Source: Candidatus Brocadia pituitae
GTDB taxonomy: Bacteria > Planctomycetota > Brocadiia > Brocadiales > Brocadiaceae
DNA length: 64,000 nucleotides
Assembly (NCBI GenBank): GCA_017347445.1
Contig: AP021856.1
Span: 2,798,613 to 2,862,612, forward strand
Direction of reading: 5' to 3'
Part shown: piece by piece, positions 1 through 64,000 of the stretch
Layout: each line of letters begins with the position of its first letter
How positions within the stretch are numbered: position 1 is the stretch's first letter
The notes under the pieces: generated by a model
What the model was told of the DNA's origin: nothing
What the model saw: only the letters and a program-made list of their open reading frames with translations
Databases searched by the model: none
Made by a program: the position numbers and the translations under genes

Positions 1-3000
1 AAACGAAGCGGCAGATATAAAGCTGTCTGATTGTAATGATGCCTTCGTTATACCCATCAACAATGGTTTGGCGGTTGCTGGTTTTCCACCCTTTTCCATG
101 ATTTTTTTGTTTTCGTTCTTGAATCTAAATTTATCGACAATTTGTCCTGGCAAAAAGCTCGTATCACCGACATCATCAACTTTCACTTTCCTGAGCATTT
201 GTGCAATAATTATCTCTATATGCTTATCATCAATTGGTACATTCTGAGAACGATAGACATTTTGTACCTCTTTTAACATGTAGGTTTGCAACTCTTCCTC
301 GCCACTTATTCTTAAGATGTCCTGCAAAATAAGAGGGCCTTCCACCAGCGGACTACCCGCCTTAATACGGTCACCCCTATGGGTCTTTAAATGTTTTCCC
401 CTCGGCACAAGATGCTCTATTTCCATCCCCGTTTCACTCTTGACCAGTATTGTTCGTTTTCCTCTCCGCTTTTCACCAACCTCCACAATACCATCTATTT
501 CGCTCATCACGGCCGGATCTTTTGGTTTTCTAGCCTCAAATATTTCAGCTACTCTAGGCAATCCACCCGTGATATCTTCAGTTCTTGAAATTTCCCTCGG
601 TGTCTTTGCCAGCAATGTACCAGCAGTAACAGAGTCGCCTTCTTCAACCTCAATATGTGCCTTTTCCGGAATCGGATAGAGGCCTAATATTTTTCCCGTC
701 TCATCTTCGATAATAATCTGAGGGTGTAAATCCCCTTTATGCTCCATGATAACCTTCCTCTTCACTCCGGTAGAAACATCTGATTCATGCCGCATCGTCT
801 TCCCAAGCACAATATCTTCAAAACGGATTTTACCGGACATTTCGGTTAATATGGGTATCATATGGGGATCCCATCTCGATAATACTTGATGGGCAATCAC
901 CGTATCGTTTTCGCGAACTAATATTTCCGCCCCAAGTACTATGGTATGCTTATCAATTTGTCTCCCTTTAGAATCAATAAGCAAGATTTCACCATTTGCA
1001 TTAATGGCAACGTTTTTCCCTTGTGGATTTTTCACCACAGTCAAATTATTATATTTTATACTACCGCCGCGTTTTGCTTTTATTTCCGACTCTTCCACAG
1101 AACGAGTTGCGGTTCCTCCAATATGGAATGTCTTCATGGTAAGCTGCGTACCAGGTTCACCGATTGATTGCGCTGCTATAATCCCCACCGCCATACCCTC
1201 TTCCACCTGTTGTCCTCTTGACAAATCCATTCCATAGCAATTCTTGCACAATCCCAAAGACATTTCACAGGTTAACGGTGATCTGACTTTAATCTTCTCA
1301 TATCCTAAAGCTTCTATCCTCTTAGCCTTTTCTTCCGTGATTACTTCATTTTCTCTTACAATCACTTCGTCTTTTACCAAATCTACAATATTATTTCTTG
1401 CGACCCGCCCCGTAATTACTTTGCTGAGCGGCACTTCCACTTTTTCACCCCGATAAACTACACTCTTCGTAATACCATTAGTCGTGCCACAATCATCCGC
1501 CGTAATAACCACATTTTGAGCAACATCTGCTAATTTTCTCGTTAAATAACCAGAGTCAGCTGTTTTTAATGCTGTATCCGCCAATCCTTTTCGTGCACCA
1601 TGAGTGGAGCTAAAATATTCCAGAACACCTAACCCTTCCCTAAAATTCGCCTTTATCGGAGCTTCGATAATCTTACCGGAAGGTTTCGCCATCAAACCAC
1701 GCATGCCAGCTAACTGTCTTAGCTGCTGAGAACTACCCCTTGCACCAGATGATGACATCAAGTACACTGGGTTCAAGTATGCCTTTCCATCCCTCACATC
1801 GTTTTTCAGTTCACTCAACATCTCCTCAGCAACTCTTTCACCTGCATACGTCCATGTATCAATAATCTGATTATATCTTTCACCTTCCGTGATAATTCCC
1901 TTCCTATATAATTTTTGTATCTTCTCGATTTCTTCCTGCGTTTTATCAATAATTTCCTGCTTCTTTTCAGGCATCTTTATATCTGTTATCGCAAATGAAA
2001 GACCAGCCTTTGTACACTCCTTGAACCCTATCTCTTTAATATCATCTAACAAGGCGATTGTTTTTTCACGTCCAAGAAGTTTATAACAATCCTGAATTAT
2101 CCGGCTGATTCCTTTCAAATCGAGCGTATAATTATAAAACGGCATCCCCACAGGTAATATATTGTTAAAGATAACGCGGCCAACCGTAGTTTTGCATAAA
2201 CCATTCTTTGGTTCTTCAGTCCCCAGCTTATCCTTTATAATTTTTGTCTGCCTTATCCTTAACTCAATCTTCGTGTGCAAATGCACCCTTTTCAAAGCTA
2301 ATGCGTAGACAACCTCTTCAGGATCACTAAATTTTTTTGGCTTTTCTCCTGCAACATCCTGCAAACTCGTCGTAAGATACGAGCAACCAAGAACGATGTC
2401 CTGGGTCGGAGTTATAATGGGATCACCTGAGGCCGGAGAAAAAATGTTGTTTGTTGACAGCATCAAAGTAATAGCTTCGACCTGCGCCTCTATGGAAAGA
2501 GGGAGATGTACTGCCATCTGATCTCCATCAAAATCTGCATTGAAACCACGGCACACCAGAGGATGCAGCTTGATTGCATTTCCTTCTACCAGTATCGGTT
2601 CAAAAGCCTGAATACCCATCCTATGCAATGTAGGAGCCCTGTTAAGCAATACCGGATGTCTCTTTACCACCTCTTCAAGGATATCCCACACCTCATTATC
2701 TTTACGTCCCAACATCTTCTTTGCACTTTTGATTGTGTCTGCGAGTCCTAATTCTTTCAATCTCCGTATGATAAAAGGCTGAAACAATTCCAAGGCTATT
2801 TTTTTTGGCAAACCGCACTGATGCAATTTCAGCTCAGGTCCAACGACAATGACCGAACGCGCTGAATAATCAACCCTCTTTCCAAGCAAATTCTCCCGGA
2901 AACGCCCCTGCTTCCCCTTAATCATATCGGTTAATGACTTCAAAGGTCTGTTATTACTTCCTAACACAGGACGCTTTCCTCTGGTATTATCAAAGAGCGC

Positions 3001-3900
3001 ATCCACAGCTTGTTGCAACATCCTCTTTTCGTTTCTGATAATTACTTCCGGAGCATTTAGATCAATTAGCTTCTTTAAACGATTATTTCGATTAATAATC
3101 CTTCGGTAAAGATCATTTAAATCTGATGTAGCAAAGTTTCCACTCTCCAGCAGCACTAACGGCCTCAAATCAGGAGGTATAACCGGAACTACAGATAGAA
3201 CCATCCATTCAGGCTTGTTTCCAGAATCTCTAAACGCCTCAACAATTTCCAGTCTCTTAATTATCTCTTTTGCACGCTGCTTTGATTTTGTTTGATTGAG
3301 TTCCTCACGCAGTTCATTTGATAACGCTACCAAATCGAGTTTCTGCAACAATGCACGAATAGCCTCAGCGCCCATTCCGGCCTTAAATGATTGTTCTCCA
3401 TATTTTTCTTTCGTTGCTTTGAATTCTTCCTCACTGAGCATCTGGTATTCGTTTAAAGGTGTACTTCCCTGATCTATAACCACATAGTCCTGAAAATAAA
3501 TAATTCTTTCCAGCGAAGTAGTCTTCATGCCCAAAAGAGTACCTAAACGGGAGGGCATTGCCTTGAAGAACCAAATGTGCACAATCGGTGCGGCCAAACT
3601 GATGTGCCCCATCCGCTTTCTTCTTACGCGGGAGTGTGTAATTTTTACGCCACAACGGTCACAAATAATTCCCTTATGTTTTACGCCTTTATATTTCCCG
3701 CAAAAACATTCCCAATTTCGTTCCGGACCAAAAATACGCTCACAAAAGAGACCGTCTTTTTCAGCCCGATAAGTACGATAGTTAATCGTTTCAGGTTTTT
3801 TTACCTCTCCATAGGACCAGCTTCTGATATCCTCTGGGGATGCAAGAGATACTTTCACCGAACTATACTCGTTTATTTTATCGTACATGATGTCTGCCAT
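1..3900 (-). CDS. rpoC: DNA-directed RNA polymerase subunit beta' (3'-truncated by window)
   Basis: Largest subunit of RNA polymerase, carrying the catalytic centre. Reading leftward from an ATG at 3900, the frame stays open for 1300 codons to base 1 and ends inside the conserved [17 protein letters not shown] segment, so roughly the last 80-100 residues lie outside the window. The N-terminal zinc ribbon (CFC...CDRC, about residues 65-85) is present. The Mg-binding motif [12 protein letters not shown] is near residue 455 (bases about 2511-2549). The second zinc site (CGTTNG ... [11 protein letters not shown]) is also present. The gene starts 79 bp after rpoB, as expected for an rpoBC operon. 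No frameshift was seen. Identification is certain; only the C-terminus is missing. Confidence 0.98.
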
Positions 3901-3979
3901 GTTAGACCTATAAAAAAACTTTTATATGAGTTTAGGAATTACCGCAACAGCGACGCACAATTATTTAGAATCATTCATC

Positions 3980-6900
3980 TTATACTTTTAGGGCTTCCAT
4001 CTTATTCTTTTCCAACTTCAAGCTCAAACCTAATCCGGCAATTTCATTCGCAAGCACTTCAAATGATGCAGGCGTGCCCGCCTCCAATGTATTCTCACCC
4101 TTTACCATCGATTCATAAATCTTCGTTCTGCCCTCAACATCATCACTTTTCACCGTAAGTAGTTCCTGCAAGTTATGGGCTGCACCGTACGCCTCAAGCG
4201 CCCACACCTCCATTTCACCGAACCGTTGACCACCAAACCTTGCCTTACCACCTAAGGGTTGCTGAGTAATTAACGAGTAAGGCCCTGTCGCCCTTGCGTG
4301 TACTTTTTCATCCACTAAATGATGGAGCTTGAGCATATACATATAGCCTACCGTGACCTTCTGCTCAAAAGGTTCGCCTGTACGTCCGTCATACAAAACT
4401 GATTTGCCATCTTCCGGTAAACCAGCTTCCTTTAAAGTAGTCCTAATTTCCTCTTCTGTAGCACCCTCAAATATTGGAGTGACCGCCCGGAACCCCATTT
4501 TTTTTGCAGCCAATCCTAAATGAGTTTCCAAAATTTGTCCAACATTCATTCTTGAAGGTACACCCAATGGATTTAATAACATTTCTGCCCGCGTACCGTC
4601 AGCCAAAAACGGCATATCTTCCTCAGGGAGAATCTTCGAAATAACCCCCTTATTACCGTGCCTGCCGGCCATTTTATCACCAACCGACAGCTTTCTCTTT
4701 GTAGCAAGTGATATCTTTGCAAGTTCCAGGACCCCGGTAGGCAACTCGTCACCGCGTTTTAAATTGTTAATCTTTCTGTCCCTTTCGTCTTTCAGGAATT
4801 CCATCTTTTCGCAGTAGTCCTTGCTGATTTCTAATGCCTTTTCTTTTTTCTTCTTATTACTAAATTCAATATTTTCAATATCAAATCGTTCTTCTAGGAT
4901 CAGCACCGATTTTATCGGCATCCCACGTTCAACAGTATATATCTGTCCTGTCTGCATGTCCGCCATGGGTTCTTTAATCTCTTCATCTATGGCCTTGAGC
5001 ATCTTTATAAATTCTTTTGATATACTTTCGTCATATTTTAACTCAATCTCATTTATATCTTGTAAAATCTTTTGCCTTTTATCATCGGACAAATACGACT
5101 TCCTCGAAAACACCTGGGTGTTGATAACAATTCCTTCCATACCGGAGGGAACCTCCAACGATTCATTCTTAACGTCTTCTCCTGCCCTTCCAAAAATTGC
5201 ATGCAACAATTTTTCTTCAGGAGATAATTCACTCCGGCTCTTTGGTGCGATTTTCCCAACTAGAATATCTCCTGGCTTTACCTTAGTCCCAATTCTTATG
5301 ACTCCATTCTCATCAAGATTACTTAATGCCTTTTCTGACACATTAGGGATATCACGGGTAAACTCCTCTCTGCCAAGTTTGGTTTCCCGAATTTCTACTT
5401 CAAACTCATCTCTGTGGATGGAGGTAAAACGGTCGTCCTTCAATAATGCCTCACTAATGACAATAGCATCTTCAAAGTTGTATCCGTCCCACGTCATAAA
5501 AGCGACCAACACATTCTTCCCAAGACTGAGTTCTCCATGACACGTGGCGGCTCCATCCGCAATTACCTCTCCCCGCTTTACCCTTTGACCCTCAACGACT
5601 ATCGGTTTTTGGTTTAAACAGGTACCTTCATTCAAACCTACAAATTTTCTCAGCTTATACGTATCTCTGTCATCAATGGTAACCTCATTGGCTGTAACTT
5701 TTGTTACTGCTCCCGCATTCACAGCCTGGACAGTCATGCTTGAGTTTTGTGCTACAAACCGCTCCATTCCAGTGGCTATTATAGGTGGCTCAGTTCTGGC
5801 GAGGGGAACTGCCTGCCTTTGCATATTAGAGCCCATCAGCGCCCTGTTTGCATCACTATGCTCAAGAAAAGGTATTAAACTCGCAGAAACACCAACCAAC
5901 TGTTTTGGAGAAACATCCATGTAATTTATATCTTTAAAAGTTACCTGATGAAAGTCTCCATTATACCGGCAAAGTACACCCTCTTTTTCTACTTTATTTT
6001 TTCCCTTTATAAGTACGTCTGCAGGAGCAATTATCCTATTTTCTTCCTCATCTGCACGAAGATACGTTATTTTTTCACCAATTTTTCCTTTGTCGATGAT
6101 ACGATATGGAGTAATCAAAAACCCGTATTCATCGGTCGTTGCATAAATACTCAAAGAAGCAATTAGTCCTATATTTGTGCCCTCAGGCGTTTCTATAGGA
6201 CAAACCCTGCCATAATGTGACACATGAACGTCCCTGACCTCAAACCCTGCTCTTTTTCTGTTTAAACCGCCCGGTCCTAACGCACTCAACCTTCTTTCAT
6301 GTGTTAACTGGGCAAGCGGGTTCGTCTGATCCAATACTTGGGATAACTCACTCCTGCTGAAGAAGTAGTCAATGGCAGAAAATATAGCTTTTGAATTTAC
6401 CAGTGAACGCGGTGTTAATTGATCGGAATCTTTTACGCTTAACCTCTCCTGAACAGTTCTGCGCAATTTCAGAAAACCTTTCCGTAACTCTTCACCAGCC
6501 AATTCATCGATTGTCCGAAGACGTCTGTTCCCTAAATTGTCAATATCATCGATCGAAACACCTGATTCACCTTTCCTCAATTTCATTATGTACCGAATTG
6601 CCTCGACGTAATCTTCCTTTTGCAACGTCATCTCGGATTCATTAATATTGTGCCCCATTTTCCGGTTTAACCTGAATCTTCCAACGGCACCTAATCGATA
6701 CCTCTTTACATCAAAGAATTTATCATAAAACAACTGGCGGGCCTTTTCCACTTGCTGAGGATTACCAGGTCTAAACCGGGCATAAATTTTCAACAATGCA
6801 TCTTCGTGAGACTTTGTAAAATCGGACTCCAAAGAATTTAATATCAACGGATCGTCCGCCTTTTTAATAACCTCTATTTTTTTGATTTCCAAATCGGCAA

Positions 6901-7710: not shown

Positions 7711-8130
7711 TTATTTTATTTCAACCTTCGCGCCAGCAGCCTCAAGTGATTTTTTTATCTTCTCCGCTTCCTCTTTTGTCACTCCTTCCTTCACCGTTTT
7801 CGGAGCACCTTCAACAAGGTCTTTCGCCTCTTTTAATCCCAGATTTGTTTCAGCACGAACGGCCTTAATAACCTGGATCTTGTTTGCACCACCGTCCTTC
7901 AAAACCACATCGAATGAGGTTTTTTCTTCAGCAACGGCAGCCTTGCCTTCCGCCGCAACCGCAACGCCTGCTGGCATTGCTGCAACAGCGGCAGCGGAAA
8001 CACCAAATTTCTGCTCAAACGCCTTCACCAGCTGCGAAGCCTCCAACAAAGTCATGCCTGCAACCAAATCTAACACTTGCGCAATTTTGCCAGAAGGCTC
8101 AATTGCCTTTTCTTCACTAACCTGAGTCAT
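7711..8130 (-). CDS. rplL: 50S ribosomal protein L7/L12
   Basis: Stalk protein of the large ribosomal subunit that recruits translation GTPases. It has 139 residues with the three expected parts: an N-terminal dimerisation helix region, an Ala/Val-rich hinge (about residues 45-70, [24 protein letters not shown]), and the C-terminal factor-binding domain ([23 protein letters not shown] ... [15 protein letters not shown]). The family is usually 120-130 residues; the N-terminus here is slightly long. A GGAGGG-type ribosome binding site precedes the ATG. It lies between rplJ and rpoB, as in most bacteria. Confidence 0.97.
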
Positions 8131-8164
8131 TTTACCCTCCTACCTTTTAGGAATCCTGCAAAAA

Positions 8165-8692
8165 CTATACACTACTCTTTTCTTTCTGATCTTTAACTGA
8201 ATGAAATACCGTTACCAGTCCGCGTAAAACGGCTTGAAACGCACCCGCAACTCCTGCTAAAGGCGCATGGATACCCGTAATTATTTGCATACGAAGCACC
8301 GGCATCGATGGAACTTTTGCCAAGTTATTAATATCAGCAGGAGAAACTATCGCACCATCGACGAATCCACCTTTCAGAATAAAAAATGGCATTTTTTTCG
8401 ACCACTCAACAGTTTCCTTTGTCATCACCACCGCATCGTCCCCGCCTGTAACGATAACCGTAGGCCCTTTTAAGAGACCAACTATCCCGTGTACCCCAAC
8501 TCCCTTAAAGGCAATGCCAGCGAGCGAATTTTTCACAATCCCCATGGAGATATTCTTTTTCCGTAAATCTTTTCGCATCTGATCGAATTCTAATGCCTTA
8601 ATACCCTGATAACCAGCTACCAGATAATTACTGGTTATGCGATAGCTGGCAGCCATCTCTTTTACGATAGATTCTTTTAATTCATTAGCCAT
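8165..8692 (-). CDS. rplJ: 50S ribosomal protein L10
   Basis: L10 anchors L7/L12 dimers to the 23S rRNA. The 175 residues show the family pattern: N-terminal ELKESIVKEMAASYRITSNYLVAGYQGIKALEFDQMRKDLR, then KNSLAGIAF and GPTVIVTGGDDAV, and a C-terminal helix for L12 binding. It lies 34 bp upstream of rplL and 35 bp downstream of rplA, leaving little room for the long L10 leader used for autoregulation in E. coli. If autogenous control exists here it must use a smaller or different site. Confidence 0.96.
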   Translation of the reverse strand: MANELKESIVKEMAASYRITSNYLVAGYQGIKALEFDQMRKDLRKKNISMGIVKNSLAGIAFKGVGVHGIVGLLKGPTVIVTGGDDAVVMTKETVEWSKKMPFFILKGGFVDGAIVSPADINNLAKVPSMPVLRMQIITGIHAPLAGVAGAFQAVLRGLVTVFHSVKDQKEKSSV

Positions 8693-8727
8693 TGCTTTCC
8701 TTCAATCCCTTCACTTTGGTTCTCAAC

Positions 8728-9408
8728 TTAAACCTCTAACATTATGCCAGGGCTCATCGTTGAAGATACCGATACTTTTTCTACAAATATCCCTTTAGCC
8801 GAGGCTGGGCGAGAGTTAATAATATGCCTCACAAATGCGTTGATATTATCCTCAAGATCTCCCTCTGAAAAAGAAACCTTTCCAACAATACTGTGAACAT
8901 TTCCACCCGCATCAGTTCTGTATTCAATTTTCCCCGCCTTGAACTCTTTCACAGCCGTTCCAATATCATCAGTAACCGTACCAGATTTTGGAGAAGGCAT
9001 CTTGCCCTGCGGTCCAAGCACCCTTCCTAATTTACCAACGAATCTCATCATGTCAGAAGTTGCAATTGCCACGTCAAAGTCAGTCCATCCACCCTCCACC
9101 TTTTTCACGAGTTCTTCAGCGCCAACTTCGTCAGCACCTGCCTTTTTTGCTATCGCCGCCTTTTCACCTGCAGCAAAGACAATTACCTTCAGACTTCTGC
9201 CAATACCCCTAGGCAACGAAATAGAGCCTCGTACGAGTTGGTCTGACTGTTTCGGGTCAATACCCAGCTTCATAGCAACTTCTATACTTTCGTCAAATTT
9301 TGTCCGTTTAAAAGACTTCAGCAGCGCAACGGCCTCCTTTAACGAATATTTTTTCTCTGAGTCAACAATTTTTTTTGACTCTAAATATCTCTTACTTCTT
9401 TTTAACAT
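8728..9408 (-). CDS. rplA: 50S ribosomal protein L1
   Basis: L1 forms the mobile stalk at the E site and in many bacteria represses its own mRNA. The protein has 226 residues, normal for the family. Signature segments are the N-terminal RYLESKKIVDSEKKYSLKEAVALLK, the GRVLGPQGKMPSPKSGTV signature near residues 130-145, and the C-terminal GIFVEKVSVSSTMSPGIMLEV. The ATG is preceded by GAAAGGAAAG about 7 nt upstream. It follows rplK by 53 bp, a conserved pair. Confidence 0.97.
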   Translation of the reverse strand: MLKRSKRYLESKKIVDSEKKYSLKEAVALLKSFKRTKFDESIEVAMKLGIDPKQSDQLVRGSISLPRGIGRSLKVIVFAAGEKAAIAKKAGADEVGAEELVKKVEGGWTDFDVAIATSDMMRFVGKLGRVLGPQGKMPSPKSGTVTDDIGTAVKEFKAGKIEYRTDAGGNVHSIVGKVSFSEGDLEDNINAFVRHIINSRPASAKGIFVEKVSVSSTMSPGIMLEV

Positions 9409-9461
9409 CTGAGCGCTTTCCTTTCAAACAACCCGAAGGTCCTTTTTCGCAAAAAGATGGC

Positions 9462-23753: not shown

Positions 23754-25112
23754 TTATGGACAGGCGACCATGCTACTTTTCGGCTGAATGATTTGATACC
23801 TTTCCATCTTCCGGTAGAGGGTCATCCTGGACCAGTTGAGTTTTCTGGCCGACTCCGCCTTGTTCCACCTGGTAGATAAGAGAACGGCAAGCAAACGATC
23901 CTTTTCATCCTGAGAAAACATCCTCCCATCAATAACCCGGTTGCGGAATCTTTCCGGCAGGTCATGAAACATTATCCATGGGGAGTGAGTACTGACCATA
24001 ACTGCCTCCAAAAGGTTCTTCAGCTCCCGGATGTTACCAGGCCAATCATAGGCATGGAAAAACTCCAGGGTATCACCGGAAAACCCCCTGATATCACGCC
24101 CAAAACGACCGTTTAATTCACGTATGTAATGGTCAAGCAGTACCATGATATCCTCCTTCCGCTGTTTCAGCGGCGGTAAATGAATATTTGACACATTGAG
24201 CCGGTAATAGAGATCCTTCCTGAACCTGCCTTCTAATACCATCTCCTCCAGATTTTTATTGGTCGCGGCGACGATCCTGATGTCTAAGGGTATATTCCCC
24301 TTCCCACCTAACCGTTGTATCTCCTTGCTTTCGATGACCCGCAGGATCTTTGCCTGGTGGTAAAGGCTCATGTCTCCGATCTCATCGAGGAAGACGGTGC
24401 CACCCTCCGCCCGTTTCAGCTTGCCCTCCTTCGGGATATCCGCCCCGGTAAATGCCCCCCGTTCATAACCAAAGAGTTCGCTTTCCAGGAGGCTGTCAGG
24501 TATCGCAGTGCAGTTGATACAGACAAAGGGGTTCTTCTTTCTCGGACTGTTCTTGTGGATAAGTTCAGCCGTCAGTTCCTTCCCCGTGCCGGTTTCTCCG
24601 GTAATGAGCACATTGCTATCCGTCTGGGCCACCTTCCCAATGTATGTCTTAATCTCCCTCATCGGCAGGCAGTCACCTACGAATTTCTCTGCATCGGAAA
24701 TGGCATTCCGTGAGGTTTCCTGCATTCCAGCAGATGCGTGAAAAGAAAGTCCGGAAAGACACTTACGAATACTTGCAGCAAGCGCCTCAAACGAAACGGG
24801 CTGTTTAAAATAATCGTTCATCCCGGGTTTTAAGGCGGCAATGGCAATCTCTTCGGTGCCTTCGTGTGTGATCTGGATAAGGGGAATGGCACTATTCAAC
24901 CGATGGATCTCCTGTGCTATCTGCATACTATCCCGGCCACCAGCAAACGATCCAACGACGACAAGATGAATGACGCTGTATTGCATGATATCTAGGGCTT
25001 CTGTCTTGTTTGATGATGCAATGCCCTGATACCCTTGCTGCAGCAAAAACCGTTTCAGTTTTTCCCGGAACGCATCATTCCGTTCCACGATTAAAATTGT
25101 CGGTGTCTTCAT
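23754..25112 (-). CDS. sigma-54-dependent transcriptional activator with degenerate receiver domain
   Basis: NtrC-family enhancer-binding protein, 452 residues. Residues 5-118 fold as a response-regulator receiver, but the phospho-acceptor Asp position is Gly54 (LVVVGSFAGG) and the acidic pair reads E10-R11; the Lys (FKQPV, 103) and Thr82 are kept. The AAA+ domain follows with Walker A GETGTGKE (172-179), the sigma-54 contact loop GAFTGA (219-224) and Walker B VFLDEIGD (240-247). The C-terminus is a Fis-type helix-turn-helix (SARKLNWSRMTLYRKMERY). It should remodel sigma-54 holoenzyme but not be controlled by phosphorylation. The ATG has AAGGAG 9 nt upstream. Its leader carries a c-di-GMP riboswitch, a terminator and a sigma-54-like promoter. 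No kinase gene is adjacent. Confidence 0.9.
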   Translation of the reverse strand: MKTPTILIVERNDAFREKLKRFLLQQGYQGIASSNKTEALDIMQYSVIHLVVVGSFAGGRDSMQIAQEIHRLNSAIPLIQITHEGTEEIAIAALKPGMNDYFKQPVSFEALAASIRKCLSGLSFHASAGMQETSRNAISDAEKFVGDCLPMREIKTYIGKVAQTDSNVLITGETGTGKELTAELIHKNSPRKKNPFVCINCTAIPDSLLESELFGYERGAFTGADIPKEGKLKRAEGGTVFLDEIGDMSLYHQAKILRVIESKEIQRLGGKGNIPLDIRIVAATNKNLEEMVLEGRFRKDLYYRLNVSNIHLPPLKQRKEDIMVLLDHYIRELNGRFGRDIRGFSGDTLEFFHAYDWPGNIRELKNLLEAVMVSTHSPWIMFHDLPERFRNRVIDGRMFSQDEKDRLLAVLLSTRWNKAESARKLNWSRMTLYRKMERYQIIQPKSSMVACP

Positions 25113-25195: not shown

Positions 25196-25250
25196 ACAAA
25201 AAAAGCCTTACTGCAAAATGTTTATGGAAAACATTTTCGGCAGTAAGGCT
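25196..25250 (-). terminator. intrinsic terminator in the leader of the sigma-54 activator gene
   Basis: On the minus strand AGCCTTACTGC pairs with GCAGTAAGGCT-type arms around an inner AAAATGTTT/AAACATTTT stem, followed by seven U. It lies between the riboswitch and the gene, the expected place for an expression platform. An extra upstream copy of CCTTACTGC (complement of 25268-25276) could pair alternatively with the 3' arm. Confidence 0.85.
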
Positions 25251-25274
25251 GTCTTTTTCTGTCGGATGCAGTAA

Positions 25275-25365
25275 GGTTATCTTTAAAAACTACGTCCGTG
25301 TATGCTTAAAAGACCCTGTTACTTTGCGTCCCCCGATCACTCAGGGTTTGCTCTTATCGAAATGT
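25275..25365 (-). ncRNA. cyclic-di-GMP-I (GEMM) riboswitch, copy 1
   Basis: The minus-strand leader has the class I signature: GCAAACC, then a hairpin CCTGAGTGATCGGGG with a GNRA-type loop, then GGGACGCAAAG and AACAGGGTCTT. Known GEMM-I RNAs bind c-di-GMP with these conserved blocks. The 3' side (P3 and the closing strand of P1) is less canonical than in the copy at 56836. An intrinsic terminator follows, then the activator gene. Confidence 0.8.
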
Positions 25366-35830: not shown

Positions 35831-35884
35831 ACAAAAAAGCCTTACTGTAAAGATTTTTCATTAAACATCTTCGGCAGTAAGGCT
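35831..35884 (-). terminator. intrinsic terminator in the leader of the secreted-protein gene
   Basis: The minus strand reads AGCCTTACTGCCGAAGATGT, a short loop, then ATCTTTACAGTAAGGCTTTTTT. The outer stem and U tract are almost the same as at 25196-25250 and 56967-57020. Confidence 0.85.
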
Positions 35885-35985
35885 ATCTTTTTCAAAGCCG
35901 TTTGAACGGTTTAAGCGGTTCAAAAGACTCGCAAGACCCTGTTACTTTGCGTCCCCTGATCACTCAGGGTTTACCATTTATCGAA
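35885..35985 (-). ncRNA. cyclic-di-GMP-I (GEMM) riboswitch, copy 2
   Basis: Minus-strand blocks GTAAACC, the hairpin CCTGAGTGATCAGGGG with GNRA-like loop, GGGACGCAAAG, AACAGGGTCTT and a second hairpin TTGAAC/GTTCAA. The order matches class I c-di-GMP aptamers. It is followed directly by the terminator and then the small secreted-protein gene. Confidence 0.8.
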
Positions 35986-56771: not shown

Positions 56772-56799
56772 TTGACAGGATTTTTTTCCTTGCTATATT
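56772..56799 (+). promoter_or_regulatory. sigma-70 promoter of the surface-protein operon
   Basis: A perfect TTGACA and TATATT (five of six) are 16 bp apart, with a start expected near 56806. That is about 30 nt before the riboswitch. No sigma-54-like element is present, in contrast to the other riboswitch leaders. Confidence 0.75.
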
Positions 56800-56835
56800 G
56801 TTCAACTATAGCCATTCGAAACGCTTAAAAAACAA

Positions 56836-56922
56836 AAACTGTCGAAAAGGGCAAACCCGGAGTGATCCGGGGACGCAAAGGAAAGGGTCTTTCAACGTAC
56901 AGGGAAGTACGGGGACAGTTGC
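56836..56922 (+). ncRNA. cyclic-di-GMP-I (GEMM) riboswitch, copy 4
   Basis: The most canonical copy. P1 AACTGTC/GACAGTT closes the aptamer. GGGCAAACC leads to the P2 hairpin CCCGGA-GTGA-TCCGGG with a GNRA loop, then GGGACGCAAAG and AAGGGTCTTT. A second hairpin GTAC/GTAC and GGGGACAG follow. These blocks match c-di-GMP class I riboswitches of the Geobacter-like type. An intrinsic terminator begins 45 nt downstream. Confidence 0.88.
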
Positions 56923-56966
56923 GAAAAGTCCTTTAACTGCATTAAGGAAGTATTTTAGAAAAGATA

Positions 56967-57020
56967 GCCTTACTGCCGAAGATGTTTTTCAAGAAACATT
57001 TTTGCAGTAAGGCTTTTTTT
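56967..57020 (+). terminator. intrinsic terminator / expression platform
   Basis: GCCTTACTGC pairs with GCAGTAAGGC around an inner ATGTTT/AAACAT stem, followed by seven T. Nearly the same hairpin closes the leaders at 25196-25250 and 35831-35884. The next gene starts 106 nt downstream, so read-through is the regulated step. Confidence 0.9.
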
Positions 57021-57125
57021 GTTTTATGGAATCAAAAAGGAGGATAAAGATTTTGAGGTAAGAATACTTCCGTGAACGAACCAACAGTGGAAGGTAATAT
57101 TTACTCAAAAAAGGAGAAGAAAATA

Positions 57126-57737
57126 ATGAAAAGCTGTCATGTTTTATTTTGCACAATTCCCTTTTACATCATGACCTTTAGTTACATGGAGATTTTCACA
57201 GAACAACAAGCTTTATCAGGTAATGTTGCAGAGCAGGAAACTACCATTGAACAAGTTTTAGAAGAGGTTCAAAAAGGACTAATTAATGCGCAGCAGGAAA
57301 TCAAAAATATGGGTATGCCTCAGTTAGAATCGGTCAAACTAACCTTACAAACTGCTATGAGCAAAAAAAGCGGGGCAAAATTAAAAGTATTTATCTTTTC
57401 TTTTGGACAAGAATGGGAAAAGGAACGATCCCAGGAATTGGCGCTAACCCTCAAACCACCGTTGCCCCCTTTTCCATTAGAAGAACCCATTCCTTATAAG
57501 GTGACGCTTGCAGACAAACTGTCAGAAGCGATTGTCAGCGTAGCCAAAGGCGTTCAAAAAGCCCGTACGTCAGAACAACCTTTAGAAATTGAACAATTCA
57601 CTGCCGAGTTCAACTTTATCGTCCAGACTGAAATTGGCGGTAAAGTTGCTTTTGAAATTTCGCCAATTACAGCTGAGACGGAAGGCGATCTTAAGAAAAA
57701 AGCGATACACAAAATTGCCGTTACATTCAAACGATAG
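57126..57737 (+). CDS. exported protein with two trypco2-like domains
   Basis: 203 residues from the ATG with AAGGAG 9 nt upstream; a longer frame from 57072 lacks a site. A hydrophobic N-terminus (MKSCHVLFCTIPFYIMTFSY) looks like a signal peptide. Two similar domains follow, about residues 38-115 and 127-203. Each has a helix (TIEQVLEEVQKGLINAQQEI; LADKLSEAIVSVAKGVQKAR) followed by beta strands ending in LALTLKPP or KIAVTFKR. This is the layout of the trypsin-co-occurring domain 2 family. Family function is poorly known; export would be unusual. It is the first gene behind riboswitch copy 4. Confidence 0.6.
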   Translation: MKSCHVLFCTIPFYIMTFSYMEIFTEQQALSGNVAEQETTIEQVLEEVQKGLINAQQEIKNMGMPQLESVKLTLQTAMSKKSGAKLKVFIFSFGQEWEKERSQELALTLKPPLPPFPLEEPIPYKVTLADKLSEAIVSVAKGVQKARTSEQPLEIEQFTAEFNFIVQTEIGGKVAFEISPITAETEGDLKKKAIHKIAVTFKR

Positions 57738-57767: not shown

Positions 57768-58599
57768 ATGGATATCTTTAATAAACGGATAAAGAAAAAT
57801 GTGTGGTTAAATTTTATCCTATTCAGAAAATACACAATCTTAATATCTGGAATCTTATCTTTATGCTCATGGACCACTTTGATGCAAAAATGTTATGCAC
57901 AGTATTATTCTTCTCTATCTGCTACAGATCAATTTTATGCCGGTCGTTTTAGTAACTTTGAAAACCGTCAAATAGGTATTGCGAACCCACAAAATTATGA
58001 TGCTTTTTTAGATATCAATGGTTTTAAAAATAGAACAGGTTCCTCAGGTCTTTTAGCAGCTGTTAACCCCCTTCAAAATCTCCTCAACGTATGTAGCGGA
58101 AAGCAAGACCAGTATACTTTACAACCTATGAACGATGGATGGAACCAATTTAATGGCCAACAACCCTATCCTTATTCTGTGAATAACCGCTTATATGGAC
58201 AAAGCAATAACAACTATTTAAATTCAAGCCCAGGTATGTCTTCACAAAACACTATACAACCATCCATTTATGGTCAAAATCCATTTTTTCAGTTTGTAGC
58301 TTCTGCATTTTTAAAAATGTGTGCCAATTTTTTTGCACCAAAGACAACGACATCTAATTTTAATTCTTTAAAGGCAGAAACGCAATTGAAAGTTGGTATG
58401 CAATCCATGGGTATAAGTAACAGCACGGGAGACAATGAAACATTTGAGTCCCGTTTTCAAGAAGTAAAAAAACAACAACTCGATTTTTATTATAATGATA
58501 ATGATCTCCATAACTTGCGTGTTGAAGCCAATCAGAAAACCTTATACTATCTGTATACAGACCCGCTCTATCTTTATTGGAGCTACAGATATAAACTAG
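57768..58599 (+). pseudogene. 5' part of a giant surface protein gene split by IS630
   Basis: Begins with an AAGGG site and a signal peptide (YTILISGILSLCSWTTLMQK, cleavage near CYA-Q). An Asn/Gln/Tyr-rich region follows (NQFNGQQPYPYSVNNRLYGQSNNNYLNSS). The frame enters the IS at 58600 and ends at 58733. Joining it to 59747 after removal of the IS and one CTAG gives KLAAQILFETRPIFPSF in one frame. The reconstructed gene has 1619 codons. Without excision only a 277-residue secreted stub plus IS-encoded residues is made. Confidence 0.85.
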
Positions 58600-59742
58600 T
58601 GTATACTTGCAAAAATAAGTTAAATATAGTAGACTCCTTTTATTTCTATATGAAGGAGGTCTGCCATGCCAAGAAAAGCACCAATACCTTGTTGTTCGGA
58701 GCAAGATCGGCAGATTCTTGCCGAATGGGCTAATAGTCGGAGTGCAGAGTGGAGGCTTGTTGGACGAGCTAAAATCATGAACATGCTGCTTGCCGGAGAG
58801 CAGGTGAATAAGGTGGCCACAGCCCTTGGGACATCCCAGAAAACTGTTATTGAGTGGCGTGGTCGCTTTAGTACAAACGGGATCAAAGGCTTGTACGATC
58901 TGCCTCGTTCCGGCAAACCTGCGAAATATGATAAGGAGTTTCGCAATCAGGTTTTGAAGACATTGGAGCTTGAGCCGCCAAAAGGACAGGCAAGTTGGGA
59001 TGGTCCCTCCCTTGCAAAGCATTTGGGGGCATCAGACGATGCCATCTGGCGTATTCTTCGAAAGGAAGGCATTTGCCTTGCGCGGCAAAGAAGCTGGTGT
59101 GTGAGTACTGACCCGGAATTTACGACCAAGGCGGCTGATATCGTAGGTTTATACCTGTCCCCGCCAGAGAATGCCATAGTGATTTCTGTTGACGAAAAGC
59201 CAAGTATACAAGCTTTAGAGCGAACCAAAGGCTATGTATGTACAAGCAACAGAAAAATCGTACATGGTCTTAAAAGTACCTATAAGCGTCATGGGACGCT
59301 GAACCTGTTTGCAGCTCTCAACGTGGCAACAGGAACTATTCATACGCAAACAACAGAATTAAAAAGACGAGTGGAATTTCTGGCATTCATGGATCAACTG
59401 CTTTTGGATTTACCGGATAGCGACAAGAAGGAAATCCATGTTATTCTCGACAACTACTGTATTCACAAGCGAAACGGGGAATGGTTGGCAGCACACCCGA
59501 ATGTTAAATTCCATTTTACACCTACTTCTGCAAGTTGGCTCAATCAGGTGGAAATATGGTTTGGTATTCTTTCGAGAAAAGCTTTGAAGAACGCCAGCTT
59601 TAAAAGTGTTGAGCAATTGAGGTGTGCAATCGAGGCATTCATAGAAGCTTATCAACCGAATGCAAAACCTTTCGTGTGGCGTAAGAGAGAGGTTAAGGGT
59701 TCGCAATTAAGAAATACTATAATGAATTTATGCAATTAAGCA
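58600..59742 (+). mobile_element. IS630-family insertion sequence, copy 2
   Basis: 1143 bp, same ends as copy 1, flanked by CTAG at 58596-58599 and 59743-59746. CTAG is the known preferred target of IS630. It differs from copy 1 at a single silent position (59643). It lies inside the giant surface-protein gene in the same orientation. Confidence 0.93.
58666..59739 (+). CDS. IS630-family transposase, copy 2
   Basis: Encodes the same 357-residue protein as the copy at 44613-45686, with intact DDE residues (VDEKPS, LDNYC, NQVEIW). Near identity of the two copies points to very recent transposition. Confidence 0.93.
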   Translation: MPRKAPIPCCSEQDRQILAEWANSRSAEWRLVGRAKIMNMLLAGEQVNKVATALGTSQKTVIEWRGRFSTNGIKGLYDLPRSGKPAKYDKEFRNQVLKTLELEPPKGQASWDGPSLAKHLGASDDAIWRILRKEGICLARQRSWCVSTDPEFTTKAADIVGLYLSPPENAIVISVDEKPSIQALERTKGYVCTSNRKIVHGLKSTYKRHGTLNLFAALNVATGTIHTQTTELKRRVEFLAFMDQLLLDLPDSDKKEIHVILDNYCIHKRNGEWLAAHPNVKFHFTPTSASWLNQVEIWFGILSRKALKNASFKSVEQLRCAIEAFIEAYQPNAKPFVWRKREVKGSQLRNTIMNLCN

Positions 59743-60852
59743 CTAGCAGCTCAGATTTTATTCGAAACCCGTCCTATCTTTCCATCCTTTGAAAGTTTGT
59801 CTTATGAAATTTCTTCATGGACTACTCCTCCCAATGATACCGAAACTTTAAAAGAACGTTTTAACAAACGATTATTACTGATGTATTATAATGCCTTATT
59901 GTGTCAGGAAATACAAGTTTACTATACAACTTATCCTGACGAAAAATATGCCTTCGATTTGGTTAACTCGACCCTTGCCCAGATAACGAAGCAAGTAAGG
60001 GAAAGTGAGGATGCAACTTCATGGTCATCTGACTGGCAAAGTAGGTTTAAATCTACTCATGATAATTCTGAAGGCTTTGCTAATGTGACGGAGGCATTTG
60101 AACAACTCATGGACGATTTTCCTGCATTCAAAGAATACTCACAACTGAATGAGAATGTGTCCGATTTATTAGTAACGTTCGAAGACATCCCATCAGTTAA
60201 GGAAATTATCGACATGACCAACGCTAATTTTTCTAATCCAAGTATCTATCAAAAAGCCTCAGAATACTATTACGATTATAAAGAAGAATGTAATGACCTG
60301 TTGAGTATTACAGATGCTATGGTTGAGATAGAGCGTTTCTACGAACAGTTAAACGGATTATTGAATGAGGATGAAACCTACCAGCTACTTCAGGCAACTC
60401 AATATTTAGCAGTAGCATTATTAGAAGATTATCAGAAAACTGTACATGATACAGTTTATAACTGTTATGCATACTATGGTGATTGGTGTGATCCTTATAG
60501 TAACCAAGAGATTCTTGATTTGGTATATAGTAACGAAACCCTTGATCTGATAAATGCTGTCGGTGAATTTTACGAACTCTATGATCTATTCTGGTATAAC
60601 TTTTATAACAGTCAAGAGTATCTAAACCTGGAAGCGGAGGCAATGGAAAAAATACAAATAGCCATAAATCCAGTGCTTCCTGAACTAGAAAATCTCCAGG
60701 AACAATACACAAATAATATAAACAACATTCCGGGAATGAAAGAGCTTAATGAGGCTATGAATGATGTTGTACTCGACATTCGAAGTGAATCTTCTGAGCT
60801 TGACCAAAAATTAAACCGGATGACTCAACTCGCTAAGGATTTGTACTATAAC

Positions 60853-61798
60853 CCCACTCCACCTACCGTTGCTTCCACAAGCCCGGCAAGCGGAGCTACA
60901 AATGTGGCGGTTGGCAGCAACATCACGGCCACATTCAGCGAGGCGATGAATGCTTCGACCATTACAACATCAACGTTTAAGCTGAACAATGGGGCAACGG
61001 GCACCGTAAGTTACAATAGCGCAACCAGAACGGCCACCTTCGACCCATCAACAAACCTGAATTACTCGACTACGTATACGGCAACGATGACCACCGGTGC
61101 GAAGGACAGTGCGGGCAACCCAATGACGTCAAACTACACATGGAGCTTTACCACAGCGCCATTACCCGATACCACACCGCCCACGGTAACCTCCACAAAC
61201 CCGATAAACGGCGCTACAAATGTGGCGGTAAGCAGCAACATCACGGCCACATTCAGCGAGGCGATGAATGCTTCGACCATTACAACATCAACGTTTAAGC
61301 TGAACAATGGGGCAACGGGCACCGTAAGTTACAATAGCGCAACCAGAACGGCCACCTTTGACCCATCAGCAAACCTGAATTACTCGACTACGTATACGGC
61401 AACGATGACCACCGGTGCGAAGGACAGTGCGGGCAACCCGATGACGTCAAACTACACATGGAGCTTTACCACAGCGCTATTACCCGATACCACACCGCCC
61501 ACGGTAACCTCCACAAACCCGATAAACGGCGCTACGAATGTGGCAGTAAGCAGCAACATCACGGCCACATTCAGCGAGGCGATGAATGCTTCGACCATTA
61601 CAACATCAACGTTTAAGCTGAACAATGGGGCAACGGGCACCGTAAGTTACAATAGCGCAACCAGAACGGCCACCTTTGACCCATCAGCAAACCTGAATTA
61701 CTCGACTACGTATACGGCAACGATAACTACGGGTGCAAAAGATGCAGCGGGTAACCCACTGACAGCCAATTACCAATGGAGTTTTACTACGGGTGCCT
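60853..61798 (+). repeat. three direct repeats of about 318 bp
   Basis: Units start near 60853, 61169 and 61487 and encode the three Ig-like domains. The second and third are almost identical at the DNA level; the first differs mainly at its start. Such identity favours recombination that changes repeat number. Confidence 0.85.
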
Positions 61799-63320
61799 CT
61801 GGAACTGATCTATTTACTGCATACAATGACCTTTCATGGTCTGCAGGGCAGGTAAATGACAAGATCACGCTCTACACAACAGGGCAAGGCGGGCTGCTGA
61901 AGGATTACCTTACCGGTGTGAACACCCCGGTTACCCTGACCGTTGCTGGCGGATATGTAGTTTCTGGCACTCTGGCTCAAGGCAGTAACGCAAATACCGG
62001 CACGGATGCTTATAATATCTTCAGTGGCATCGTGAACAGTGTGGGGCTTATCAGTTACAGTGCGACGAATCTTACCTTCACTTTTACCGGTCTTGATCCT
62101 GACCTGAACTATGAATTTGTCCTCTTCGGGAACCGCAATGATGCTCCCTATAACAACCGAAGCACGACAACCACCATATCTGACGTTACCGCTTTCACCA
62201 ACGCAAGCACACCCGGGACGGCTTTTTCAGGAGCAACTGATCCTGCGGTAACCATAGTGAATGGCGATAATACCGCCAACGGGCACGTTGCACGTTTCAC
62301 CAACATCCACCCAGGTGCGGATGGAGATATACTGATTACTGTCTCGTCTCCAACCGGCAAGTTCTATGCTAATGCACTGATGCTGAGGGCAACGCAGTCA
62401 TCAGACACAACGACGCCAGAGGTGAGCGCTACGAATCCTGTCAATAATGCCACCGGGGTGCCGGTAAATAGCGTGGTAAAGGCAACATTTAATGAGGCGA
62501 TGGACGCAGACAGCATAACACCGTCTACCTTTCTGGTAAGTGATGGGATCACCAATATAGGTGGTACGGTAAGCTATAGTGGTGTGACGGCCACGTTTAC
62601 CCCGTCGGGTCCGCTAGCGCAATCCACTAAGTATACGGCAACGATAACTACGGGTGCAAAAGATGCAGCGGGTAATCCACTGACAGCCAATTACCAATGG
62701 AGTTTTACTACGGGTGCCTCTGGAACTGATCTATTTACTGCATACAATGACCTTGCATGGTCTGCGGGGCAGGTGAATAACAAGATCACGCTCTACACAA
62801 CAGGGCAAGGCGGGCTGCTGAAGGATTACCTTACCGGTGCAAATACCCCGGTTACCCTGACCATTGCTGGCGGATATGTAGCTTCTGGCACTCTGACTCA
62901 AGGCAGTAACGCAAATACCGGCACGGATGCTTATAATATCTTCAATGGCATCGTGAACAGTGTGGGGCTTATCAGTTACAGTGCGACGAATCTTACCTTC
63001 ACTTTTACCGGTCTTGATCCTGACTTAAACTATGAATTTGTACTCTTCGGGAACCGCAATAATGCTTCCTATAACAACCGAAGTACGAAAACCGCCATAT
63101 CTGATGTTAGGGCTTTCACAAACGTAAGCACACCCGGGACGGCTTTTTCAGGAGCCACTGATCCTGCGGTAACGATAGTGAATGGCGATAATACCGCCAA
63201 CGGGTACGTTGCACGTTTCACCAATATCATACCTGGTGCAGATGGCGATATGCTGATTACCGTCTCGTCTCCATCCGGCGGGTTCTATGCTAATGCATTG
63301 ATGCTGAGGGCAACGCAGTC
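61724..63320 (+). repeat. two direct copies of an extended module of about 680 bp
   Basis: 61724-62405 and 62640-63320 both run from the ACTACGGGTGCAAAAGATGC block through GGGCAACGCAGTCATC, with scattered, mostly third-position changes. They encode the large module following the Ig-like domains and are separated by one divergent Ig-like domain. Confidence 0.8.
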
Positions 63321-64000
63321 ATCGGAAACAACGGCAACGACAGTGAGTACAACGGATGTGGCAAGCAATAGTAACAATGGCGTTCTTGTCGATGATTCTG
63401 TCCGGACAACGGGTAAAATCGATGATATCCATAAGACCCCGGAAACAGGTATTACCCTAAAATCCTTTCGTGCAAAAGCCGGTCGTGACGGCAGGATAAC
63501 CTTGCATTGGGAAACTCCCTCTGAGACTGACACGGCAGGCTTTAACCTCTATCGTTCCCGACACAAGAGCGGGAGATACACAAAGGTCAACAATGTGCTC
63601 ATTAATAGCAGGGATATAAATCAATCCGGCGAAAGATACACTTTTACAGATGAACCTGATTCCGGCAGATCACACTATTACAAGCTGGAACATGTTAACG
63701 CCTATGGTGACAATGCCTTGTATTACCCTATCAAAGCGAGGATGAAGTCTCCCAGGAAAAGCGTGCCTTGAAGTATGGAATACCTGAGTGGTTAAAAATA
63801 CCATCTCTGCAAGCCCAAGTTCTCGTGGAGAAGTTTGTACCTATACGCATACCATGGAGCAATCCGTATGCGTAGAAAGATAGCGTATTTCCCGTGAGGG
63901 GTATGACGGAGTTACGAGGTACAGACGACCTTTTGGGGTGTATGAGAATGGCGTGTTAGTTCGTGCCAACTGCCCTTTCTCAGTGAAGCACTGACAATGT

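Follow-up and report, generated by a model that had tools for sequence, protein, structure and literature searches.

Here we describe a gene, located at positions 57126 to 57737 on the forward strand of the 64,000-nt stretch of DNA that was analysed (the window), whose 203-aa product contains two Trypco2 domains and is probably exported, and which lies directly downstream of a predicted c-di-GMP-I riboswitch that was absent from the original prediction for this locus. Our preferred reading, which we hold tentatively and at somewhat less than even confidence, is that this protein assists a trypsin-like protease as an extracytoplasmic accessory and is encoded in a riboswitch-controlled operon for surface proteins. 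According to this proposal, high levels of c-di-GMP would most likely raise transcription of the Trypco2 gene, as the ligand-bound aptamer would take up a strand that otherwise forms the 5' arm of a terminator, and RNA polymerase would then read through into an operon in which the Trypco2 gene is followed by one encoding a protein with Ig-like repeats. The product, whose two Trypco2 domains go back to an ancient duplication, would be exported and would most likely act on a trypsin-like serine protease outside the cytoplasm, as its adaptor or regulator. The partner would in the closest relative be the protease encoded by the next gene, which also looks exported, while in the anammox host either a resident Deg-type protease would be used or the protein would be the orphan of a transferred pair.

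The gene begins with an ATG that is preceded by a ribosome binding site (AAGGAG, 57111 to 57116), and the presence of two Trypco2 domains in its product, as originally predicted, was confirmed. The whole protein matches the Pfam Trypco2 profile (PF19631) in two stretches (60.9 bits, E 1.5e-16), and when the first 110 and the last 86 residues were scanned separately, so that each half had to exceed the curated cut-off of 24.2 bits alone, they reached 30.1 and 35.4 bits, respectively. Domain 1 corresponds to residues 41 to 110 (57246 to 57455) and domain 2 to residues 132 to 202 (57519 to 57731), both on the forward strand. The two domains had also been described as similar to each other; this holds in the sense that both match the family profile and not as a visible repeat identity, because a direct alignment of one half with the other was not significant (z 1.45, with 91 of 1000 shuffles equally good). 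A weak match of the protein to Trypco1 was also seen (E 0.082), and structure predictions, with pLDDT values of 37.7 and 43.0, were too low for use.

Residues 1 to 31 (57126 to 57218, forward strand) form a signal-like N-terminus as judged by hydropathy, with a candidate A-L-S cleavage site located by eye at residues 29 to 31. The signal-like start that had been claimed is present, with a 14-residue hydropathy peak of 1.76 at residue 6, and a homologue with the same layout peaks at 2.15; however, the strength of the signal is only moderate, as the protein ranks ninth among the 31 window genes compared and the cytosolic-looking product of 7711 to 8130 reaches 1.82. It is conceivable, if quite unlikely, that the protein acts at or inside the inner membrane, its N-terminus being a membrane anchor or no signal at all; hydropathy is only moderate, residue 22 is acidic and a long stretch precedes any cleavage site, all of which would allow this. 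However, the N-termini of the homologue and of two single-domain proteins from the same class, both described below, are more hydrophobic (2.15, 2.09 and 2.24), and export of the two-Trypco2 protein is what we consider probable.

The closest relative is WP_302211163.1, annotated as a 'trypco2 family protein' and encoded on plasmid NZ_CP120686.1 of Tunicatimonas pelagia. In the search of the plasmid collection it was 37.4% identical over 93% of the query, and a direct comparison gave 38% identity over 190 residues. This homologue also contains two Trypco2 stretches, and its halves alone score 37.5 and 26.7 bits, both over the cut-off. Across the two proteins, corresponding domains align strongly, with z 27.0 for domain 1 and z 25.8 for domain 2, whereas the crosswise comparisons gave z values of 2.9 and 1.4; since the like-to-like matches are so much stronger, the duplication predates the divergence of the two lineages.

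The gene next to the Tunicatimonas Trypco2 gene, on its downstream side, encodes a trypsin-like protease (Trypsin_2, E 4.9e-13) with a GDSG motif. Its frame spans 7845 to 9419 of the plasmid and opens with an ATG at 7845, 8 bases past the Trypco2 stop codon, while the annotated start of the serine protease is a TTG at 7953, by which a hydrophobic N-terminus is dropped. The residues added from the ATG are signal-like, with a hydropathy of 1.79 that is about equal to that of the window protein, and the annotated start probably omits the signal sequence of the protease. The link to a protease is thus kept in this relative, probably outside the cytosol. Weak matches of the protease to the PADLOC models RT-Protease_XI (E 1e-6) and LmuA (E 2.4e-6) were taken to reflect the common trypsin domain. 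The two loci have in common the two Trypco2 domains, the 38% identity and the signal-like N-terminus of the product; the Tunicatimonas locus differs in its position on a plasmid of only 9,458 bases, in a gene for the superinfection exclusion protein SieB (E 3.2e-27) as second neighbour upstream of the Trypco2 gene, in the adjoining protease and in the lack of any Rfam match that reaches the gathering score.

In the main text of PMC7159879, Trypco2 (trypsin-co-occurring domain 2) is presented as a frequent neighbour of the trypsin-like peptidases that belong to MoxR-vWA/VMAP conflict systems, and both Trypco1 and Trypco2 are associated with trypsin-like peptidases; that main text uses neither the term 'signal peptide' nor the term 'secreted'. 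The publications found to name Trypco2 know Trypco domains by their gene neighbourhoods only, with no function assigned by experiment, and describe no exported form. The original prediction took Trypco2 domains to be usually cytosolic. Compared with Trypco2 as presented in PMC7159879, the protein described here is alike in that both halves exceed the family cut-off and in that the neighbour of its relative is a trypsin-like peptidase, and it differs in that one chain carries two domains and starts with a signal-like sequence, that no trypsin gene adjoins its own in this genome and that a riboswitch precedes it. MoxR ATPase or vWA genes were found neither among the eight neighbouring window ORFs nor among 7 of the 15 ORFs (at least 90 aa) in the 19 kb past the window. 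The proposed partnership with a protease derives from the neighbour of one relative together with the published association of Trypco domains and trypsin-like peptidases.

The host genome encodes two copies of HZS_alpha (hydrazine synthase alpha family), which points to an anammox bacterium. Five places in this genome match PF13365 (Trypsin_2), the nearest of them at a distance of about 31 kb from Trypco2, and no trypsin-like gene is present inside the 64,000-nt window. Three of the five places encode what we take to be Deg-type proteases. Because no trypsin-like protease is encoded near the host gene, the Trypco2 protein would have to work with a resident Deg-type protease or be an orphan. 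Even the best of the host's trypsin-like places is only weakly similar to the protease from Tunicatimonas (25.7%, E 1.3e-5). That the protein binds a protease is what we infer. We counted in favour of a protease accessory the scores of both halves over the Trypco2 cut-off, the patchy occurrence of the gene, the 38% identical relative, the protease adjoining it, the signal-like N-termini of the two single-domain proteins and the riboswitch with its overlapping terminator; counted against it were the lack of a protease in the window, the weak 25.7% match to the host protease, the single-domain loci without a protease and the moderate N-terminus.

The occurrence of Trypco2 genes is patchy. A search with the whole protein found it in 1 of 59 genomes, namely its own. 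The Trypco2 profile matched a single genome among 33 in the family, two among 75 in the class and, over the cut-off, one among 392 sampled in the phylum; in the control for these occurrence searches, 2 of 14 well-known genomes gave matches. Two matches in the phylum (E ≤ 0.001, below the cut-off) were rejected as Trypco2, their frames encoding what we presume to be a PilM-like protein and a response regulator. The second genome of the class, G049 (84% complete, 5% contamination), belongs to another family of the same order as the window host and contains two Trypco2 genes with one domain each, which score 27.1 and 27.3 bits and are located at 3358 to 3828 and 1916 to 2284 on contigs of 3.8 and 3.3 kb. 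Both products have the signal-like N-termini mentioned above; among the ORFs as read on either contig there was no protease, and the gene right before one of the Trypco2 genes is presumably ispG. By hydropathy, the products of all three Trypco2 genes found in the class look exported, in a sample of three in which contamination of G049 is possible.

Direct similarity of the whole protein revealed no relative outside the plasmid collection, in which the one from Tunicatimonas was found. Further tandem relatives were seen neither in genome contigs, whether with the protein or with a two-sequence alignment, nor in viral contigs or phages; the contig scans depend on matching short peptide patterns, and absence from them is weak evidence. 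On plasmids, the Tunicatimonas protein retrieved itself only and the two G049 proteins retrieved no tandem relatives. Profiles from PHROGs, NCBIfam and PADLOC gave no further lead on the tandem Trypco2 protein, and solved structures gave two chance-level matches with the protein (E 0.5 and 0.68) and none with the alignment.

We infer a horizontal origin for the Trypco2 gene. The gene could be a functionless orphan, left over from a protease-Trypco2 pair that was transferred and whose protease has since disappeared. This explanation, which we consider unlikely, would account for the single Trypco2-bearing genome in the family, for the missing protease beside the gene, for the broken neighbour gene, for the window's own ORFs after glmU being unmatched in the 16 to 19 kb beside the glmU of five relatives and for the Fic and type IIG restriction genes just past the window end. 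However, it fits poorly with an ORF that is intact and has a good ribosome binding site, with about 38% identity retained across phyla in both domains and with a riboswitch ahead of the gene that scores well over threshold.

A promoter-like site, TTGACA-16-TATATT, which agrees with the consensus at 11 of 12 positions and has a TG in front of its second hexamer, is found at 56772 to 56799 on the forward strand, in a scan that overall gave 8 sites against a shuffle mean of 7.2 and hence no excess. The predicted c-di-GMP-I riboswitch aptamer (RF01051) follows at 56840 to 56980 on the same strand with 55.7 bits, the gathering score being 35; the genome scan gave a shorter reading, 56840 to 56926, with 38.8 bits. 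A script identified a terminator hairpin, AGCCTTACTGC.../GCAGTAAGGCT, followed by a T run, at 56966 to 57024 on the forward strand, which is not reported by the simple terminator scan because that scan allows loops of 3 to 8 only. The 5' arm of the terminator (56966 to 56981) overlaps the 3' end of the aptamer by 15 bases, and the final bases of the aptamer, AGCCTTACTGCCGAA, are shared with the arm whose pairing partner is GCAGTAAGGCT, right before the T run; the region from 56830 to 57030 has a fold z of -5.79. Because of this overlap, the aptamer and the terminator would compete for one strand, and it follows that ligand binding should favour read-through, making the element a predicted ON switch.

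The arrangement recurs in the genome. With 150 of 419 candidates scored, the genome scan gave 45 aptamer matches, 44 of them over the gathering score. The best 30 aptamers, which do not include the window locus and two of which stand in tandem, were accompanied by a terminator hairpin in 25 cases (raw script count), and for the other five the script found none. In all 25 terminator-bearing loci, the 5' arm overlaps the 3' end of the aptamer in a nearly identical sequence, which is a repeated switch module. Furthermore, c-di-GMP-I riboswitches are very abundant: all 33 genomes of the family have them, and between at least 20 and at least 56 were counted per genome in the 11 genomes of the genus, with 94 candidates scored in each. 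The element described here resembles the c-di-GMP-I riboswitch class (RF01051) in having an aptamer over the gathering score and then a terminator hairpin, and differs in that the first downstream gene encodes a Trypco2 protein.

Two other c-di-GMP-I riboswitches lie in the window, at 25236 to 25362 and at 35870 to 35985, both on the reverse strand. Several ORFs downstream of c-di-GMP-I riboswitches begin with signal-like sequences, and one gene behind such a riboswitch (23754 to 25112, reverse strand) is response-regulator-like. We take its product to be a sigma-54-type response regulator, and c-di-GMP may in this way command a regulator as well.

Downstream of the Trypco2 gene, the original prediction had placed a giant adhesin. 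The next gene does encode an Ig-repeat protein; however, the 'giant' is a single gene of about 1,600 codons with four Ig-like domains, which in this assembly is split by a mobile element, a break that the prediction had not mentioned. The 5' piece (57768 to 58598) has a signal-like N-terminus with a hydropathy of 1.55, and the 3' piece (59744 to 63771) contains four Big_5 domains (4.2e-105, 4 stretches); both are on the forward strand and in the same frame. Between them, also on the forward strand, lies an IS630-family insertion sequence (58599 to 59743, ends good to a few bases) with its transposase at 58666 to 59739 (NF033545, 3.1e-69). The element stands between TA copies at 58597 to 58598 and 59744 to 59745, TA presumably being the IS630 target site, and frame arithmetic places the continuation of the ORF from 57768 after the second TA. 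The element is present in many copies: its end has 17 further matches in the host genome, and six of these copies, when compared with the one described here, were 99.0 to 99.9% identical to it, a sign of recent transposition. The ORF from 57768 gave 22 outside matches, all beginning at residue 246 or later and most at 265 or later; these were rejected as relatives of the exported protein because the IS630 element begins at about residue 277 and the matches fall in the part that overlaps its end.

The Ig-like gene starts 30 bases downstream of the Trypco2 gene on the same strand, no terminator-like site was found between them by a scan that sees short-loop hairpins only, and both products have signal-like starts (1.76 and 1.55); the two genes would be co-transcribed. 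In addition, both are unmatched in the same 58 other genomes, the 355 residues preceding the Ig-like domains in the second piece being found in 1 of 59. On these grounds it could be argued, close to the assembly or protection role suggested in the original prediction, that the Trypco2 protein serves the adjacent Ig-like protein as a chaperone, a protector from proteolysis or a retention factor within one riboswitch-controlled transcript, an explanation that we regard as rather unlikely. The Tunicatimonas relative, however, has no Ig-like neighbour, the Trypco2 ORF has remained open while the Ig-like gene was cut by IS630, and neither gene was found in the 58 relatives in which a co-occurrence of the two might have been seen.

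The LapD/LapG system exemplifies the control of surface adhesins by c-di-GMP. Our preferred reading, a protease accessory outside the cytoplasm, would likewise link c-di-GMP, a protease and an adhesin; unlike in LapD/LapG, an RNA would here mediate the effect of c-di-GMP and the protease would be trypsin-like, and no homology is claimed. A broader possibility, which we consider improbable, is that an extracytoplasmic branch of Trypco2 exists, in which an exported Trypco2 protein and an exported trypsin-like protease form a module, and that in the present host a c-di-GMP RNA switch controls the proteolysis of a surface protein. If true, an extracytoplasmic module commanded by c-di-GMP would follow the same logic as the Lap-type control of adhesins, with components that are unrelated. 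The two-gene unit of Trypco2 and protease on a small plasmid would be a compact system for testing the effect of the domain, and in the anammox host the Trypco2 locus would tie c-di-GMP to a surface-protein operon. Among the papers listed, titles and opening lines of abstracts described no c-di-GMP riboswitch or adhesin regulon in anammox bacteria or Planctomycetes; according to the review PMC11224092, the c-di-GMP level correlates with the amount of matrix in anammox sludge.

The surroundings of the operon vary. It is preceded by a glmU-type gene that is matched over its full length in most of the genus, and the ORFs beside glmU, as read, differ between the five relatives compared above. Past the Ig-like gene, immediately outside the window, a Fic-family gene (1424 to 2173 of that stretch; PADLOC SoFic model, 4.3e-85) is followed by a type IIG restriction-modification gene (2203 to 5175), as in a variable, defence-rich stretch.
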